A stretch of DNA of 64,000 nt from Alicyclobacillus sp. SO9 (GTDB lineage Bacteria > Bacillota > Bacilli > Alicyclobacillales > Alicyclobacillaceae): assembly GCF_016406125.1 (NCBI RefSeq), contig NZ_CP066339.1:4898001-4962000 (forward strand), written 5' to 3'. Position 1 is the first letter of the stretch. Each line of letters begins with the position of its first letter. The notes beneath the pieces are model-generated. The model saw nothing but the letters and a program-made list of their open reading frames with translations. It ran no database searches and was not told the DNA's origin. A program made the translations under genes and the position numbers. Positions 3,097 through 59,625 of this stretch are shown piece by piece.

Positions 3097-3150
3097 CGCT
3101 TCGGGGAGGTCGAACATCAAAGAAACCCATGACGATCTCTTTGGTGTACG

Positions 3151-3240
3151 CCGCCACTTTCCTCCGCTGGTATTATCCAGGTCAGGTACGAGGGTTCAAG
3201 GATACCTCCTTGTCTCAGCTACTGCTCCCCTAGTGGCTCC
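3151..3240 (-). ncRNA. TPP riboswitch (THI element)
   Basis: Read on the minus strand, the aptamer shows the conserved THI-box blocks. A closing stem pairs GCCACT near 3240 with AGTGGC near 3152-3157. The CTGAGA motif follows (about 3213-3218), then the ACCTG block and the pyrophosphate-binding GGATAATACCAGC (about 3166-3178). It lies 83 nt upstream of tenA in the same direction, as expected for feedback control of thiamin genes by thiamin pyrophosphate. Confidence 0.95.
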
Positions 3241-3306
3241 ATATTCAATAATGTTCAGTCACAATTAATATATCATAGACGACACGTCTGGCATACCATA
3301 GAAAGT

Positions 3307-3334
3307 TTGAGTGAATCCCAAAATAGACTATAGT
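3307..3334 (+). promoter_or_regulatory. Possible sigma-A promoter of hen1-pnkp
   Basis: TTGAGT (3307-3312), a 16 nt spacer, then TATAGT (3329-3334), ending about 30 nt before hen1. Each hexamer differs from consensus at one or two positions. It is the best candidate in the 126 bp between the riboswitch and hen1, but unproven. Confidence 0.35.
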
Positions 3335-3366
3335 GGTGATAATACGTTGTATGAAAGGGACATCTC

Positions 3367-4713
3367 ATGCAAATCACTTTTAGCATTCAAGGTGAGAAAG
3401 CCGACCTCGTATCCTACTTTTTTGGGAAACATCCTGACCATCCTTATCATCGGGATACAGAATTTGGAATCGTTGAATTTAAATTCATTGAATATACCGA
3501 TGCGTTTGTAAAAGGCTTTGTTGCTTTTCATGCCAATGGACTGGCGATGACACAAGACAGCGGCTATAGAGGGCTGGAGCAATACATTACCGACAGGGAG
3601 TTTTCTCTGTCCACCATTTTTCTCACCAGCATTCGCAACAGTATTGGCCATGTGCTGAGTCCGGACTACGATAACATCGACAGGCTCTATAACGTCACTC
3701 TCGAATTTGGCCCCGTATCCACCAAGTTGTCGGACGAAACGGTGCAGGAACTTCTGACCCCCCTTGGATATGAAGTTTCTATTGAGCACATTCAATCACA
3801 TTACGGATTTGTGTCAGACAGCGGTCAAGTCATGGCCATGACCCTTACCAAGGAAACGGACATTGTCTCTGTCTTCAGGCACCTGTATGTCTTAATTCCT
3901 GTCATGGACAACTACAAGCACCACCGCATTGCAACGAATGAAGTAGAAAAACTCGTCCGGTATGGCAGCGGATGGCTTGAAAGCCACCCTTTGCTTGACT
4001 TTATCCTGAAACGATATCTGCGTTATAAGGCCAATCTCATTGAAAGCACAGTTCAGCAACTTGGGGTGCCTGCCGCACAGCAAGGGACAGATTCGGCGCT
4101 CAAATCAGCCTTAAACGACCTTCGCTATGAAACGTTTTTGCGGGAAATTCAAAAGCTTGGTGTCCAGCAGGTGGTAGATATGGGGGCCGGCGAAGGCAAA
4201 CTGCTTCGCCTGCTTGTGCAAAATCAGAACTTAACCGAAATCATCGCGACCGATCCCGCCGAACAAGCCCTCACCAGCATACACTACCGCCTGGCTGAAT
4301 GGCACAAGGATGGATCTGGCACTGTGCTGGTGGAACCGAAAATCCTGCAAAGCTCCCTCTTCTACCGAGACGAGCGGCTCGTTGACAAGGAGTGCATTCT
4401 CTTGTGTGAAGTCATCGAACACATTGACCGCAGCCGGATAGATGAGACGATGAATCTGTTACTGACCTTTTACCACCCGCGCGTTCTGCTGCTCTCGACG
4501 CCCAACCGGGAGTACAACGAGGTGTATGGGATGGGGAGTGAGTTGAGGCATCGGGATCACCGGTTTGAAATGAGCCGACAGGAATTTCACGATTGGATAA
4601 GGATGCACAGCGAACAATCCGGATACGCCTATGAAATTAAGGGAATTGGAGATATGGACCGTGACTGTGGTCAGCCCACACAAATGGCCGTTCTCATCAG
4701 GGAGGTGAATTGA
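3367..4713 (+). CDS. hen1: 3'-terminal RNA ribose 2'-O-methyltransferase Hen1
   Basis: Bacterial Hen1 methylates the 2'-OH at the 3' end of broken RNA before Pnkp seals it, so the repaired site resists re-cutting by ribotoxins. The 448-residue protein has the bacterial Hen1 N-terminal domain (about 1-240). The methyltransferase follows, with SAM motif DMGAGEGK (271-278), metal-ligand motif EVIEH (Glu348, Glu351, His352), STPN (377-380) and RHRDH (394-398), which supplies the further His ligand. A GAAAGGGA site precedes the ATG. Its stop is one base before the pnkp ATG, so the two are surely co-transcribed and probably translationally coupled. Confidence 0.95.
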   Translation: MQITFSIQGEKADLVSYFFGKHPDHPYHRDTEFGIVEFKFIEYTDAFVKGFVAFHANGLAMTQDSGYRGLEQYITDREFSLSTIFLTSIRNSIGHVLSPDYDNIDRLYNVTLEFGPVSTKLSDETVQELLTPLGYEVSIEHIQSHYGFVSDSGQVMAMTLTKETDIVSVFRHLYVLIPVMDNYKHHRIATNEVEKLVRYGSGWLESHPLLDFILKRYLRYKANLIESTVQQLGVPAAQQGTDSALKSALNDLRYETFLREIQKLGVQQVVDMGAGEGKLLRLLVQNQNLTEIIATDPAEQALTSIHYRLAEWHKDGSGTVLVEPKILQSSLFYRDERLVDKECILLCEVIEHIDRSRIDETMNLLLTFYHPRVLLLSTPNREYNEVYGMGSELRHRDHRFEMSRQEFHDWIRMHSEQSGYAYEIKGIGDMDRDCGQPTQMAVLIREVN

Positions 4714-4714
4714 C

Positions 4715-7525
4715 ATGGAATTGGACTTTCAATATAACGAAATCATCATCTTGTCAGGGCCGTCCAGCACGGGCAAAAGCTACTTTGCCAAGTCACACTT
4801 TACGCCTTCGCAAATCTGCAGCAGCGACGAGTTCAGGCTGGCTATATCCGACGAACCCTTTCAGGCTCAAGCCCCGAGAAGCACTAGGGAAAATGACGGC
4901 GACCCCAACCGCGCCCGAACCACCTCCGCCAAAAGGTTTCAAGCCATGTCACAAGATGCCTTTTGGCTGCTGCACCAAACTGTGGCCATTCGTGCCAAGC
5001 ACGGGCAACTCACGGTTATCGACGCGACCAGCCTGTACCTTGAGGACATCGAATCCTATGTGAAGATAGCTCAAACACAGCATATACCTGTCTCTGTCGT
5101 CGTGTTTAACACACCGCTGGAAACTGCCCTGAAGTATGACGCAACGCGACAGTTCCCACGGGGCGAAAAAAAGCTCAAACAACAGTTTCGCGCAATGAAG
5201 CAGCTTCTAAAACGAAAGCGAGACATGAATCAACTGGGTGTGCGGAACATTTACGTCGTGACAGATGCTGCTCACACCAGCCTGCATATCCAGCCAAACC
5301 GCCTCTATGTAAACCTGGCATCAGGCCTCGACGTGATGGGCGACGGCCACGGCTTGCTGGCATCACGAATTGCCCTAATCAAACAGGCTGGATACGTGCA
5401 GGGAGAAGACGGACTGTACCGTCACCCAGACGGACGGAAACTGGTTTATCTGAACGATGAGACCAGCCGCGGGTCGGAACCTGTCGATGCAAAAAACGTC
5501 GAATACGGGCAGTATCCATCCATTGCGATGATAAACATGATGAAGAAACACGTCGAATCAGGCTTGGCGTATGCTGTCGACTCCAACCATAACTACAAAA
5601 TATGGCGCTGGCTTGAAGGCAGAAAAGTGTCCATGAAACATGGTGACGAAGTGTTTGTGAAAGAGATGGAGGCGTTCGAACAGGAGTACGGAGCAGATAA
5701 GACTGCCGTAGTAAAGAAGGAGTGGGCTCAGTTCTTAAAGTCCTTGCCGTCTCACCTGGTCATTGAGGATGACGGTCATGTTCGTGCTGTGGTTGTCCAC
5801 GCGGGCATTCACGACGACATGATGGGCAAAGAGGATGAGACCGTTCGCGATTTTTGCCGGTTTGGACCGACAGATGGATTGTTGGAGAACGGGAAGCCCA
5901 ACCGTCTCGATTGGACCCAAAACCACCACAACGGTGTGCTGGTTATTTGGGGACATGTCCCTCATCCTGAAGCACAGGTCGTTGGCAACACCATCAACAT
6001 TGACCAAGGCGGCTACTGCGGCCATTACCTGACGATGCTCCGCTACCCGGAGATGGACATCGTCCAGGAAAAGGTTGCACAGAGTTTTGTCCCGGATGAA
6101 GATAATCCAATTTTGCAGTATTACCAAAACCGATTTGATGTACCTTTGATCCAGAAATACAATGAAGGCTTCGAGGTTGCTACCAGGTGGAAGAAACTCC
6201 GTGCTCACCCGGATTACGTAAAGTCTGCTATTGAGACCGTGAGCACACACAGCGCAAGGATCGAAGAAATGTTCTATATACCGCCAACCATGTCTCCCCC
6301 GCCAAAGACGTCTACGTTGGAGGACTATCTGGAACATCCGCAGGAAGCCTTCGATTACTTCGAATCCTTGGGCGTGAAACGCCTTATTGTAGAGAAGAAA
6401 CACATGGGAAGCCGGGCAGTTCTCGCATTGTTCCGCACAGAACAAATTGGGAAACGCTACATCAACCGAGCTACACTGGGGACTATTCTCACTCGCACGA
6501 ACGCTAAGTTTTTCAATGACGAAGATGAGCAGCGGATTGTTCATAAACTGGTTGCGGATTTTGCACCGTACTTCGCTGAAATGAACACGGATGTACTGCT
6601 GCTTGATGCGGAAATACTGCCGTGGAACTTGAAAGCAGCTCATCTCATTGAAAACCAGTACGGCCTTGTTGCAGACGCAGCACTGTATACACGTGAGAAG
6701 CACCTGCAGTCGCTCTCGGAGTTTAAGGAAAAACACCAGTCAGACAGGGCGCCGAACGCAGGGGCTGGTCTGGATGACAGTGGAAGGGACGGAGTGCAGA
6801 GACAGCAGGATCTGCAGGATGGGCCACAGGGCGTGCAGGGATCGCTCGGAGTGCCGAAAGGACCGCAGGGTCCGCAAGGCAGGCAAATTGATGTGGAGAT
6901 TGCTGCCGCTGAGCAAAAACTGGACAACGCCCGCCGGTTTCAACGGGCCTTCACCTACTTCTGTTGGAACCTGGACAAGCCTGACGCCATTCAGATTGCC
7001 CCGTTTCACATACTGGGTTTCGACTCGACGTCACACTTCGACAAGACCCACGAATGGCATATGCAGCAAGCACAGCGGTTGGCAGCTCTGAGTGATCTCG
7101 TCATTGACACGCCATACCGTGTGGTCGAAATGTCGGATGAAAAAGCGAAAGCTGACATAATTGACTGGTGGGCGGAAACCACGTCTGAAGGACACGAAGG
7201 CTTTGTGTTCAAGCCGCTCAATTTTATCGCAACCTCTGCACATCGCGATGGCAATAAGGCTGATGAATTGATTCAACCTGCCATCAAAGTTCGCGGACGT
7301 GAGTATTTGCGTATTATCTATGGCATGGATTATTTGGAGCCGGAAAACCTCGAAAAATTAAAAAAGCGCTCCACCAAGAAGAAAATGCGGAACGCCTTGA
7401 ACGAATTTATGCTGTCTATAGAGAGTGTCGAGCGTTTTTTAAAACTGGACAGAGTGGACAGAATTCACGAGTGTGTCTTAGCGGCGATGGCTTATGAAAG
7501 TGAACCCATGGATCCCCGGCTTTGA
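4715..7525 (+). CDS. pnkp: Polynucleotide kinase-phosphatase-ligase Pnkp (RNA repair)
   Basis: End-healing and sealing enzyme of the Pnkp/Hen1 RNA-repair system. The kinase domain carries P-loop GPSSTGKS (15-22). The phosphatase domain keeps metal ligands Asp210 and His212 (GDGHG), Asp248, Arg252, Asn291, His292, His362, His414 and Asp430, but the usual GNHD block reads DSNHN. The ligase has lysine-nucleophile motif KHMG (Lys562), DAEILPWN (631-638), EGFVFKP and the KVRGREYLRIIYG lid. At 936 residues it is longer than the roughly 850-870 usual for the family. The excess lies in a polar insertion in the kinase (about 48-78) and a collagen-like GPQG-rich insertion in the ligase (about 675-727). 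GGGAGG precedes the ATG. Confidence 0.94.
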   Translation: MELDFQYNEIIILSGPSSTGKSYFAKSHFTPSQICSSDEFRLAISDEPFQAQAPRSTRENDGDPNRARTTSAKRFQAMSQDAFWLLHQTVAIRAKHGQLTVIDATSLYLEDIESYVKIAQTQHIPVSVVVFNTPLETALKYDATRQFPRGEKKLKQQFRAMKQLLKRKRDMNQLGVRNIYVVTDAAHTSLHIQPNRLYVNLASGLDVMGDGHGLLASRIALIKQAGYVQGEDGLYRHPDGRKLVYLNDETSRGSEPVDAKNVEYGQYPSIAMINMMKKHVESGLAYAVDSNHNYKIWRWLEGRKVSMKHGDEVFVKEMEAFEQEYGADKTAVVKKEWAQFLKSLPSHLVIEDDGHVRAVVVHAGIHDDMMGKEDETVRDFCRFGPTDGLLENGKPNRLDWTQNHHNGVLVIWGHVPHPEAQVVGNTINIDQGGYCGHYLTMLRYPEMDIVQEKVAQSFVPDEDNPILQYYQNRFDVPLIQKYNEGFEVATRWKKLRAHPDYVKSAIETVSTHSARIEEMFYIPPTMSPPPKTSTLEDYLEHPQEAFDYFESLGVKRLIVEKKHMGSRAVLALFRTEQIGKRYINRATLGTILTRTNAKFFNDEDEQRIVHKLVADFAPYFAEMNTDVLLLDAEILPWNLKAAHLIENQYGLVADAALYTREKHLQSLSEFKEKHQSDRAPNAGAGLDDSGRDGVQRQQDLQDGPQGVQGSLGVPKGPQGPQGRQIDVEIAAAEQKLDNARRFQRAFTYFCWNLDKPDAIQIAPFHILGFDSTSHFDKTHEWHMQQAQRLAALSDLVIDTPYRVVEMSDEKAKADIIDWWAETTSEGHEGFVFKPLNFIATSAHRDGNKADELIQPAIKVRGREYLRIIYGMDYLEPENLEKLKKRSTKKKMRNALNEFMLSIESVERFLKLDRVDRIHECVLAAMAYESEPMDPRL

Positions 7526-8819: not shown

Positions 8820-10122
8820 GTGTCAAGGTCCTCGGAGGGCCAGGGGGCCGATCAGGGCGGGCTGGGCGGGCTGGGGGCTTGCGCCGGGGACGTGCGCCGG
8901 GGGCGATTAGTGCCTGAAAAGATCCCTATTCGCGGAGGGGCGATGGAATAGGGATCGCAAAGATCCCTAATGCCACCGGGCCCGAGGCATTAGTGTCATA
9001 AATGGACACTAAGTTGGGGAGCGTCGGGCGGGAGCCTGGGCGTTAGGGTGCAACGGGATCCCTATTGTAGAGGGCCTGTTGGGGATAGTGATCCCATCGA
9101 TCACTATCCTCTGGCGGGTGTCGTAATAGGGAGCAAAAGGATCACTAACCACCGTGACAACGAACACATCCGACGGCCCGGCCGCCCCGCATCTGTACAT
9201 TTTCTGCCAATTGCCCACTCAACGCCAGCTGCAATGGACAATGGGAACTTTTCCGCTTATCTCTATTGCCGATCCCGCTGCTGGCAGGCGAGGCTGGGGC
9301 GTGCGCCGGGGACGTGCGCCGGGGGCGATTAGTGCCTGAAAAGATCCTTATTCGCGGAGGGGCGATGGAATAGGGAGCGCAAAGATCCCTATTGCCACCG
9401 GGCCCGAGGCATTAGTGTCATAAATGGACACTAAGTTGGGGAGCGTCGGGCGGGAGCCTGGGCGTTAGGGTGCAACGGGATCCCTATTGTAGAGGGCCTG
9501 TTGGGGATAGTGATCCCATCGATCACTATCCTCTGGCGGGTGTCGTAATAGGGAGCAAAAGGATCACTAACCACCGTGACAACGAACACATCCGACGGCC
9601 CGGCCGCCCCGCATCTGTACATTTGCTGCCAATTGCCCACTCAACGCCAGCTGCAATGGACAATGGGAACTTTTCCGCTTATCTCTATTGCCGATCCCGC
9701 TACTGGCAGGCGGGACGGGGGCGTGCGCGGGGAGTCGGGAGGCGATTAGTGTCCGGAAAGATCCCTATTCGCGGAGGGGCGATGGAATAGGGAGCGCAAA
9801 GATCCCTATTGCCACCGGGCCCGAGGCATTAGTGTCATAAATGGACACTAAGTTGGGGAGCGTCGGGCGGGAGCCTGGGCGTTAGGGTGCAACGGGATCC
9901 CTATTGTAGAGGGCCTGTTGGGGATAGTGATCCCATCGATCACTATCCTCTGGCGGGTGTCGTAATAGGGAGCAAAAGGATCACTAACCACCGTGACAAC
10001 GAACACATCCGACGGCCCGGCCGCCCGCATCTGTACATTTGCTGCCAATTGCCCACTCAACGCCCGTTGCAATGGACAATGGGAACTTTTCCGCTTATCT
10101 CTATTGCCGATCCCGCTGCTGG
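8820..10122. repeat. Tandem hairpin-rich repeat array, family A (three units)
   Basis: Three direct units start at 8903, 9325 and 9742 (periods 422 and 417 bp). They are nearly identical, preceded by a GC-rich partial unit and ending abruptly at 10122. Each unit is a chain of perfect inverted repeats. In unit 1 these are 8921-8931 with 8946-8956 (11 bp), 8967-8974 with 8986-8993 (8 bp), 8990-8997 with 9005-9012 (8 bp) and 9083-9093 with 9099-9109 (11 bp). Nearly all arms carry a word of the form C(A/C)CTA(A/T) in one or other orientation, about 13 per unit. ORFs inside repeat exactly with the unit and are not taken as genes. A diverged fourth copy lies at 25760-26016. Confidence 0.9.
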
Positions 10123-25740: not shown

Positions 25741-25759
25741 AGTATGACTAAATATGTCC

Positions 25760-26016
25760 TCGAAAGATCACTATCGGCGGAGGGGCAATGCCATTGTGAT
25801 CGCAAAGATCCCTAATGCGACCTAGCTCAGTACATTAGTGTCATCAAAGGACACTAATGTGGGGAGAGGCAGAATGGAACGTGGATGATAGGGAGCAAAG
25901 GGATCCCTATTTTAGACGGCCTGTTGGTGATAGTGATCGAATCGATCACTATCATGTGGCGGGCATCATAATAAGGAGCAGAAGGATCACTAACCAACGC
26001 GCCAACGATTAAATGG
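25760..26016. repeat. Dispersed, diverged copy of family A repeat
   Basis: About 260 bp collinear with the middle of the 8903-10122 units: the same order of hairpins, including TTAGTGTC with GACACTAA and GATAGTGATC with GATCACTATC. Many substitutions occur outside the arms. It lies between the IS110 element and pxpC. Arms seem better kept than loops, which suggests that the paired form matters. Confidence 0.85.
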
Positions 26017-56186: not shown

Positions 56187-56425
56187 GAAAGACCACCTCC
56201 GTTGGGCTTATCATCGCTGGATACGGAGGCCCTATCGCCATGACCCGGCTGTTCATCCGACACCTCTGTTATTTGCTCCTTATGCCCAGGAAACGGGAGA
56301 AGTATAGCGAGGGCAAAGACCACAATCATAAGGCCAACAACAATCATGTCTGCGACAGACAGGTTAAGGAAGTGATACTGCCATGCAGGACCTGCATGGA
56401 TTGGAGGTACAAGCTGATGTTTCAA
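56183..56425 (-). CDS. Small single-helix membrane protein, first gene of cytochrome b operon
   Basis: 80 residues with one hydrophobic helix (about 25-45, MIVVGLMIVVFALAILLPF) and an acidic, polar C-terminal tail. It contains no Cys, so it cannot be a Rieske protein although it occupies that gene position. It starts at TTG behind AGAGGAG (8 nt) and overlaps the cytochrome b start by 4 nt. No family recognised. Confidence 0.72.
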   Translation of the reverse strand: MKHQLVPPIHAGPAWQYHFLNLSVADMIVVGLMIVVFALAILLPFPGHKEQITEVSDEQPGHGDRASVSSDDKPNGGGLS

Positions 56426-57101
56426 ATGAAGACTCCTCTCTGAATGTAGTTACGAGCAAGGCTGCCCTGTTGCCGGTCATCCGTGCAGCATTGGCCCCCT
56501 TCTGCATACGTTCTGCGTAGAGCACAATGCACACTTGCAGTACACATTGATCCCTTGTTCGGAAGATGTAGGTCGCGGCTATTTTCTGCAGATTTTGAGA
56601 AATAAGCAGGTAGCTGAAAGGACTAAAGAAAATTCACACCATAGCCCGGACTACCCAAGACGACTCTGTTTGAGCTGTGACAAACCGAGACGTAGCGACA
56701 CAAACTCAGAGACGTCCGGAACAAGGAACAAGGAACAAGGGGCAAAAGAAGGGACACAAATAGACTGTACCCCAACGAATATTCGGACTTATCCGATACC
56801 AGATGTCCGCTACTCGGTGGTACAAGCTTGCCTCCTTCCAGACTCGCTTACGTTGAAACCGGCTTTCGTCCGCAGGTGGGAAAAAGGTGCTTAATGTGGT
56901 ACCACAAGGATCTGTTTACATTTATGATAATAATAAGTTGCACGAAATATTTCAAGAGTCCCTTTTTTGTCACATTTGTATTTTTACCATGTGTGTGACT
57001 TTATGGATGTGACTGGAGAGGGCTGGAGGGCTCAAAGGCTCAAAGGCTCAAAGGCTGAAAGGCTGAAATAGGGGGGGCGCGGGCAAACGGGGCACGGGGG
57101 C
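56426..57101. other. Intergenic region upstream of cytochrome b operon
   Basis: About 675 bases. It should contain the cytochrome operon promoter (minus). Short direct repeats occur: GGAACAA three times near 56719-56741 and a 10 bp GGCTCAAAGG-type repeat four to five times near 57028-57064. A GTGGTACCAC palindrome lies at 56896-56905. No gene is supported. Confidence 0.5.
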
Positions 57102-58925
57102 GAAATAAGGATCCCAGACGAGCTTATTTCTGCAGGGCACGATGCGCGGCATTAAATAAGCTCCCGAAATGAGCTTATTTGCGTCAAAATGGCTCTTTCG
57201 CAGCCAAATTGGGAGATTAAGCACTTGGGAAGGGCTTATTCACGTCGATTTGAGGCCATAGTTGCAAATAAGCGCTTCAGGGATCTCTATTCGCAGGCCT
57301 GCCTGCCCAAAACCCCCAGCCCGCATCCTCCGGGTCCTTCGACTTCGTTTTAGGTAGTGGATAAACGGGTCACCCCGTTTATCTTCCTTCTATGGTTCTT
57401 CATTTGTCTACTCGAAGACCGCGACCTAACCGCCTCGAATGGTGCCGGTTTAAGGGGATTCGGGGCGCGGGCACACGGGGCACGGGGGGCGAAATAAGGA
57501 TCCCAGACGAGCTTATTTCCACAGGGCACGAGGCACGGCATTAAATAAGCTCCCGAAATGAGCTTATTTGAGTCAAAACGGCTCTTTTGCAGCCAAATTT
57601 GCAGATTAAGCACTTGGGAAGCGCTTATTTGCGTTGATTTGAGGCCATAGTTGCAAATAAGCGCTTCAGGGATCTCTATTCGCAAGCCTGCCTGCCGAAA
57701 CCCCCAGCCTGCATCCTCCGGGTCCTTCGACTTCGTTTTAGGTAGTGGATAAACGGGTCACCCCGTTTATCTTCCTTCTATGGTTCTTCATTTTGTCTTA
57801 CTCGGAGACCGCGACCTAACGGCCTCGAACGGTGCCGGTTTAAGGGGATTCGGGTGCGCGGCACAGCGGGGCACCGGGGCGAAATAAGGATCCCAGACGA
57901 GCTTATTTCCACAGGGCACGAGGCGCGGCATTAAATAAGCTCCCGAAATGAGCTTATTTGCACCAAAACAGCCTGTTTGCAGCGAAATTTGGAGATTAAG
58001 CACTTGGGAAGCGCTTATTTGCGTTGATTTGAGGCCATACTCGCAAATAAGCGCTTCAGGGATCTCTATTCGCAAGCCTGCCTGCCCAAACCCCGGGCCC
58101 GCATCCTCCGGGCCCTTCAACTTCGGTTTAGGTAGTGGATAAACGGGTCACCCCGTTTATCTTCCTTCTATGGTTCTTCATTTGTCTTACTCGGAGACCG
58201 CGACCTAACCGCCTCGAACGGTGCCGATTTAAAGGGATTCGGGTGCGCAAATAGGGGCTGGCCGCGGCGGGGTAAGGCACACGGCGCACGGGGGGCGAAA
58301 TAAGGATCCCAGACGAGCTTATTTCTGCAGGGCACGATGCGCGGCATTGAATAAGCTCCCGAAATGAGCTTATTTGCGTCAAAACGGCTCTTTTGCAGCC
58401 AAATTGGGAGATTAAGCACTTGGGAAGCGCTTATTTGCGTTGATTTGAGGCCATAGTCGCAAATAAGCGCTTCAGGGATCTCTATTCGCAGGCCTGCCTG
58501 CCCAAACCCCCGGCCTGCATCCTCCGGGTCCTTCGACTTCGTTTTAGGTAGTGGATAAACGGGTCACCCCGTTTAGCTTCCTTCTATGGTTCTTCATTTG
58601 TCTTACTCGGAGACCGCGACCTAACGGCCTCGAACGGTGCCGATTTAAAGGGATTCGGGTGCGCAAATAGGGGCTGGCCGCGGCGGGGTAAGGCACACGG
58701 CACACGGGGACGAAATAAGGATCCCAGACGAGCTTATTTCTGCAGGGCACGAGGCACGGCATTAAATAAGCTCCCGAAATGAGCTTATTTGCGTCAAAAC
58801 GGCTCTTTTGCAGCCAAATTTGCACATTAAGCACTTGGGAAGCGCTTATTCACGTTGATTTGAGGCCATAGTCGCAAATAAGCGCTTCAGGGATCTCTAT
58901 TCGCAGGCTGGCCTGCCAGCCGCAT
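57102..58925. repeat. Tandem hairpin-rich repeat array, family B (five cores)
   Basis: Cores begin at 57102, 57491, 57881, 58297 and 58712; spacing is 389, 390, 416 and 415 bp. The last two intervals carry an extra block of about 26 bp (GCAAATAGGGGCTGGCCGCG and onward). Each core is a row of inverted repeats based on GCTTATT/AATAAGC. The longest, in core 4, pairs 58424-58439 with 58458-58473, 16 bp without a mismatch. Another 10 bp stem, GATAAACGGG with CCCGTTTATC, lies in the linker. ORFs repeat with the unit and are not genes. Confidence 0.9.
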
Positions 58926-59025
58926 TCGCCGGTCCTCATCCACCCCAGCCTGCAGCCACCCCAACCGCATCCCCGCGGCCTGCCAGCCGCATCCCCGCGC
59001 CCACCCTGGCCCGCATCCGCTCAAG

Positions 59026-59547
59026 TCAGCCTAACGCGAAGACGATGCTTCCTTCGCACACCACTTCATCGTTCACTTTTGCAATGCCGTGACCGCGGCC
59101 CATGGTTCCGCGCAACCTGTCGATGGTTACTTCCATATCAAGCTTGTCCCCTGGGCGGACCTGCCCGCGAAAACGAATGCTGTCAAGACCGGCCAACATT
59201 GGCATCTTGTTCTTCATCTTGGGCAGGGTGAGTACGGCAATGCCGCCCAGTTGTGCCATTGCTTCCGTTATGAGGACTCCGGGCATCAAATTGTATTCTG
59301 GAAAGTGACCGGTGAAATGGGGTTCATTGGCTGTCACAAGTTTGTAGCCGGCGGCGTGTTTGCCTGGGGTCAGATCGGTGACGCGATCGACCAGGAAAAA
59401 CGGGTACCGGTGGGGCAAGATCTTCCGGAGGTCTTCAGCGTAAAGGGGCAACTGAATTTGTGGTTCGGGCGTGGGTTCCACTGCCTGCTCGGCGCCCTGA
59501 TATGTACTTTCTGCTGTGTCTTCGGACGTGAATTTACCTTCAGACAT
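59026..59547 (-). CDS. fabZ: 3-hydroxyacyl-ACP dehydratase FabZ
   Basis: Removes water from 3-hydroxyacyl-ACP in fatty-acid synthesis. The hot-dog fold core (about 45-173) has LPHRYPFFLVDRV with the catalytic His and the helix MPGVLITEAMAQLGG with the catalytic Glu, then FRGQVRPGDKLDMEV. ATG 59547 has AAGGAG 7 nt upstream. This start gives an acidic, Glu/Pro/Thr-rich N-terminal extension of roughly 35 residues, beyond the usual 140-150 residues. Gene order flhO-flhP-...-fabZ matches that near mbl in Bacilli. Confidence 0.95.
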   Translation of the reverse strand: MSEGKFTSEDTAESTYQGAEQAVEPTPEPQIQLPLYAEDLRKILPHRYPFFLVDRVTDLTPGKHAAGYKLVTANEPHFTGHFPEYNLMPGVLITEAMAQLGGIAVLTLPKMKNKMPMLAGLDSIRFRGQVRPGDKLDMEVTIDRLRGTMGRGHGIAKVNDEVVCEGSIVFALG

Positions 59548-59625
59548 AAAAAAACTCCTTTGCATAGGCAATTCGCTTAGCAAATGATACCGACATAACT
59601 CTAAGCGTTCCGTCGCACAATACGA

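Follow-up and report, generated by a model that had tools for sequence, protein, structure and literature searches.

What is the tandemly repeated DNA between a fabZ-like ORF (59026-59583, minus strand) and a cytochrome b-like gene cluster (whose first ORF, also on the minus strand, ends at 56425), and in what form might it work? The locus lies in the window, the whole 64,000-nucleotide stretch of the Alicyclobacillus sp. SO9 chromosome analysed here. Both gene names rest on a first-pass annotation and on the translations as read rather than on a family search. That annotation had described a regularly spaced array of five copies, and this was borne out. Positions 57102-58903 comprise five tandem units with in-register copy starts at 57097, 57486, 57876, 58292 and 58707, that is, at spacings of 389, 390, 416 and 415 bp, and TRF returned 57073-58917 as 4.6 copies with 90% matches. 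The wider spacing of the last two intervals (416/415 versus 390) is due to the same ~26-bp insertion, present in both. Together with the 91-95% mutual identity of the units, this common insertion supports the growth by unit duplication that had been proposed. The expected stems of up to 16 bp were found as well: unit 4 has one of 16 bp with 100% complementarity (58424-58439/58458-58473), which recurs unchanged in unit 3 and at 15 bp in unit 2. The linker stem also held up, as a palindrome (GATAAACGGGTCACCCCGTTTATC) found in four inter-unit intervals, with a TA..TA width of 20 bp and further copies scattered elsewhere in the genome. Two other claims had to be revised. The array does not fill nearly all the space between the fabZ-like ORF and the cytochrome b-like cluster but ~1.85 kb of ~2.6 kb (71%), and each unit holds not one core but four quasi-palindromic sites, called joints below, in an element of 192 bp. 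The minus-strand orientation of these elements (family B) was assigned by comparison with other copies. The features of the array are, in window coordinates:

57071..57101, no strand: left array flank, rich in G runs, mirrored by the C-rich right flank 58904-59020
57102..57293, minus strand: B element 1, 192 bp, with joints at 57106-57126, 57157-57177, 57218-57238 and 57269-57289
57360..57383, no strand: linker palindrome GATAAACGGGTCACCCCGTTTATC, copy 1, 20-bp TA..TA width
57491..57682, minus strand: B element 2, four joints at offsets +4, +55, +116 and +167
57748..57771, no strand: linker palindrome, copy 2
57881..58072, minus strand: B element 3
58138..58161, no strand: linker palindrome, copy 3
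58249..58275, no strand: ~26-bp insertion, first copy, read from the sequence
58297..58488, minus strand: B element 4, carrying the 16-bp stem 58424-58439/58458-58473
58554..58577, no strand: linker palindrome, copy 4, with one mismatch
58665..58691, no strand: ~26-bp insertion, second copy, read from the sequence
58712..58903, minus strand: B element 5

The joint is a quasi-palindrome of two inverted half-sites, 21 bp long from outer TA to outer TA (first T to last A). About 600 joints were scored within the fetched stretches of the strain's own genome, with the reversed sequence as a control. Width 21 was found in 569 of them and width 20 in 18 (the linker type), whereas the reversed control gave about three joints of width 21. 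Each B element is made of four joints with a spacing of 51-61-51 and a total length of 191-193 bp (26 copies), and the spacing tuples are limited to 51-61-51, 51-62-51 and 50-61-51. At some loci the B joints run on as continuous arrays of up to 16, alternating 51 and 61/62. The first-pass annotation had considered the array unrelated to another repeat of the window, family A, yet both families are built from the one 21-bp joint module. A elements have six joints spaced 41-42-53-42-41 over 250-253 bp (63 copies). Both layouts are mirror-symmetric, and the T/A borders of the half-sites are invariant in them, 12/12 in the 63 A copies and 8/8 in the 26 B copies. The A elements of the window are:

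8902..9153, plus strand: A element, copy 1 of a three-unit array, six joints, 41-42-53-42-41
9324..9575, plus strand: A element, copy 2 of the same array
9741..9992, plus strand: A element, copy 3 of the same array
25747..25998, plus strand: A element, single diverged copy

The geometry of the elements is more conserved than their sequence. Among six B subfamily representatives the spacers average 32% identity, which is near random, versus 75% for the joints; nonetheless, spacer length is constant to +/-1 bp. When the spacing classes (41, 42, 51, 53 and 61.5) were scanned for a common period between 8 and 14 bp, the best was 10.3-10.4 bp, matching the B-DNA helical repeat. That the joint spacings follow the helical period is suggestive: there are only five classes, all from a single family of organisms, and at 10.5 bp per turn 51 and 61 fall a little short of 5 and 6 turns.

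The genome-wide search for the core that had been proposed found the paired half-site spacing of the array at more than 60 positions on this chromosome. The exact site words occur 112, 121 and 174 times in the 5.29-Mb genome, while the reversed controls gave 0-4, and five 20-kb stretches of this genome chosen regardless of matches contained no joint clusters. The distribution in the family was also surveyed and turned out to be patchy, most relatives being without such sites. No exact B joint was found in any of 60 relatives, 36 of them from the same family, and no A site word in 40 family genomes. A search of 84,980 other species genomes (the own genome was perhaps left out) gave two single matches to the exact B joint, which we estimate to be about as many as 257 Gb should yield by chance for a motif with 19 fixed bases. 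A looser S-S pattern, WTAAGC N11 GCTTAW, detected 303 sites in the genome G061, 27 in G006, 22 in G015, 19 in G020 and 7 in G001, with 0-3 in the rest. Carriage is patchy even at close range, since the congeners of G061 have 0-1 sites. All 54 joints examined in G061 were 21 bp wide, successive joints were 50-52 or 62 bp apart and thirteen complete four-joint elements were present, with a different GC-rich palindrome (ATAAGCGGCCnnnGGCCGCTTAT) as joint centre. Of the single arrays read, that of G015 spaces its eight joints exactly 52 bp apart, and in that of G006 the matched joints recur every 113-114 bp, the sum of two spacings; that of G020 has joints ~280-330 bp apart, outside the grammar. 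The 51-52/62 grammar recurs with other letters in other genera, the cases of G015 and G006 being single arrays.

The joint clusters of the own genome are intergenic, sitting between long ORFs, and few are found between divergent genes. Taking ORFs of >=150 aa as rough gene calls, 27 clusters have convergent, 31 tandem and 11 divergent flanking genes (convergent versus divergent, p 0.014). A B element follows the 5S gene, ~340-510 bp 3' of it, in 7/7 rRNA operons (loci L147, L164, L169, L174, L176, L191 and L193), a placement that can be explained without function by copying of the operon together with its flank. Both here and in G061, i.e. in two genera, the flanks are G-run-rich before the core and C-run-rich after it, whatever the gene orientation. 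Short tandem repeats with periods of at most 20 cluster within ~100 bp of the array edges, for instance at 57029-57068 of the window and at L158:1750-1875. They account for 13-15% of the bases at the own array edges versus 2-5% in other intergenic DNA, and for ~40% at the G061 array edges versus 0 in a 20-kb stretch.

Some further observations concern the copies themselves. In a by-eye count per locus, A elements tended to lie on the plus strand up to the middle of the chromosome and on the minus strand beyond it, a bias that perhaps tracks gene or replication direction. Near-duplicate A-type pairs flank a few kb of genes at L155 (9541-9779 and 14881-15117) and at L153 (two pairs, 3.7 kb apart). 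At L183 an ORF of 555 aa (3315-4982, minus strand), read from its translation as an IS1182-like transposase, interrupts a B-type array. This transposase looks like a passenger, since the array is split by it.

The reading that we favour, with a probability of roughly 55%, is that the array is a composite intergenic repeat present five times in tandem, each copy with four candidate double-stranded protein-binding sites in helical phase. As far as sequence can tell, it looks like a family-wide, probably undescribed kind of intergenic element that is putatively protein-bound. A dimer of one putative DNA-binding protein would read the two inverted half-sites of each joint, and with sites ~4, 5 or 6 helical turns apart the dimers would be placed on one face of the DNA, where several of them might assemble into one complex per element. 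Such a complex may sit behind genes, all rRNA operons among them, and act there as a nucleoprotein clamp, pause, anchor or boundary. Single elements would have spread first and the arrays would then have lengthened by unequal recombination. Chromatin-protein binding maps were among the checks proposed by the first-pass annotation, and the idea of a DNA-binding protein, itself still putative, has gained support from the geometry (a fixed-width module, two symmetric grammars, a layout constant despite varying spacers and its recurrence in other genera). That a single protein reads all the half-site words is an assumption, since the words differ between families. A wider version, which we regard as possible but tentative, is a chromosome-wide nucleoprotein system of Alicyclobacillaceae, in which a dedicated undescribed protein, seated on phased blocks of four or six sites that follow genes and rRNA operons, would organise, insulate or pause, the site words and the specificity of the protein co-evolving between genera.

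The elements might instead be non-autonomous, MITE-like mobile DNA with the joints as transposase sites and no host role, which we consider unlikely. Like bacterial MITEs they are short, non-coding and dispersed and have defined inverted ends (TAGnGATCC / GGATCnCTA); terminal inverted repeats are indeed present, the outer half-site helix of B being 92% paired over 11 columns, and the patchy distribution, with its single rich genome among near-empty congeners, would also suit mobile DNA. Set against bacterial MITEs, they gave no target-site duplication signal, with no peak at the element ends of 81 own and 15 G061 loci (one could be concealed where arrays have grown at their edges), and no autonomous parent carrying genes between the same ends was seen among the stretches read. 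The Y1/RAYT transposase family (PF01797) had 0 matches in the main carriers G000, G061, G006 and G015. Mobility of this kind is compatible with the explanation by protein sites, as the route of spread.

The comparison extends to other known repeats. REP and BIME sequences are palindromes tagged by GTAG or CGTC and associated with RAYT. The elements described here resemble them in being abundant, species-specific intergenic palindromic units, 20-40 bp long and of high copy number, that form composite arrays with regular spacing, and the likeness to BIMEs lies in the composite array of palindromic sites (PMC2817692). They differ in the absence of a GTAG or CGTC tag, neither of which appears in the half-site consensus taken with four outer bases, and of a Y1/RAYT gene (compare PMC2817692, PMC3733652). 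Moreover, their unit is made of two half-sites, often different words, with a fixed 21-bp width and in blocks of four or six. Because the two defining features, tag and Y1 gene, are absent, we have not filed them as RAYT-associated REPs. In the pneumococcal BOX elements the number of boxB units varies between boxA and boxC (PMC3049150). These too are modular, composite repeats that lie between the genes of a Gram-positive host and grow in tandem, but in the present elements the site geometry is constant; the two are set apart by description, not by sequence comparison. In the papers searched, nothing relevant turned up on repeats of this type in Alicyclobacillus. What we describe is a real, geometry-conserved repeat superfamily, apparently undescribed.

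The main rival to double-stranded sites is a hairpin role in B. In general form, this explanation holds that the units act as hairpins, i.e. as four-arm (B) or six-arm (A) RNA, single-stranded DNA or cruciforms in which neighbouring half-sites make the arms. We judge it improbable. As single strands the two elements fold strongly (z -3.5 and -5.5), the B unit (z -3.5) better than 200/200 dinucleotide shuffles, but this is expected of any array of inverted half-sites. In the own B copies the arms are 72% Watson-Crick paired versus 47% for the joints, and the B alignment has 40 two-sided changes in the arms versus 27 in shuffles (0 of 500, which is not a probability, as the copies are related sequences), with no excess in the joints, which, sharing the same kinship, act as the control within the alignment. 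B may be under some hairpin constraint, as its arms covary modestly but its joints do not. On the other hand, in the alignment of 63 A copies arms and joints both pair at the shuffled level, without compensatory excess, and mutual information gave no helix pattern; arms and joints pair equally well in A and in G061. In continuous arrays, e.g. L158, a g half-site faces an S half-site over the spacer and arm pairing is broken. On either strand the spacers pair only weakly (mean z -0.1 to -1.0), and G-T is not markedly in excess over A-C, as would point to RNA. The Rfam scan of the window returned only a TPP riboswitch (3142-3241, minus strand) and no match at the array. The absence of covariation in A, pairing at shuffled level and the broken arms of continuous arrays lead us to prefer double-stranded sites. 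The name of hairpin array was right about the complementarity, but the hairpin is probably not the working form, given the lack of compensatory changes in A and the mismatch of facing half-sites in continuous arrays.

Very unlikely in our judgement are replication or transcription roadblocks (fork barriers or terminators) at gene ends, like ter/RTP or rDNA barriers: the location behind the rRNA operons, the depletion between divergent genes and the tandem repeats at array edges would agree with them, but no RTP family protein (PF02334) exceeded the cut-off in the 14 genomes tested and the own B joints are too imperfect for intrinsic terminators.

Most bacterial intergenic repeats have been described by their sequence and hairpins, whereas in the elements favoured here as double-stranded protein sites it is the site width and distance that outlive the letters over genera, a claim that is directly testable. 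They provide a handle on how Gram-positive genomes gain and retain composite palindromic repeats when no RAYT transposase is present. Should a binding protein come to light, acid-loving bacteria would have a new factor for chromosome organisation or boundaries.
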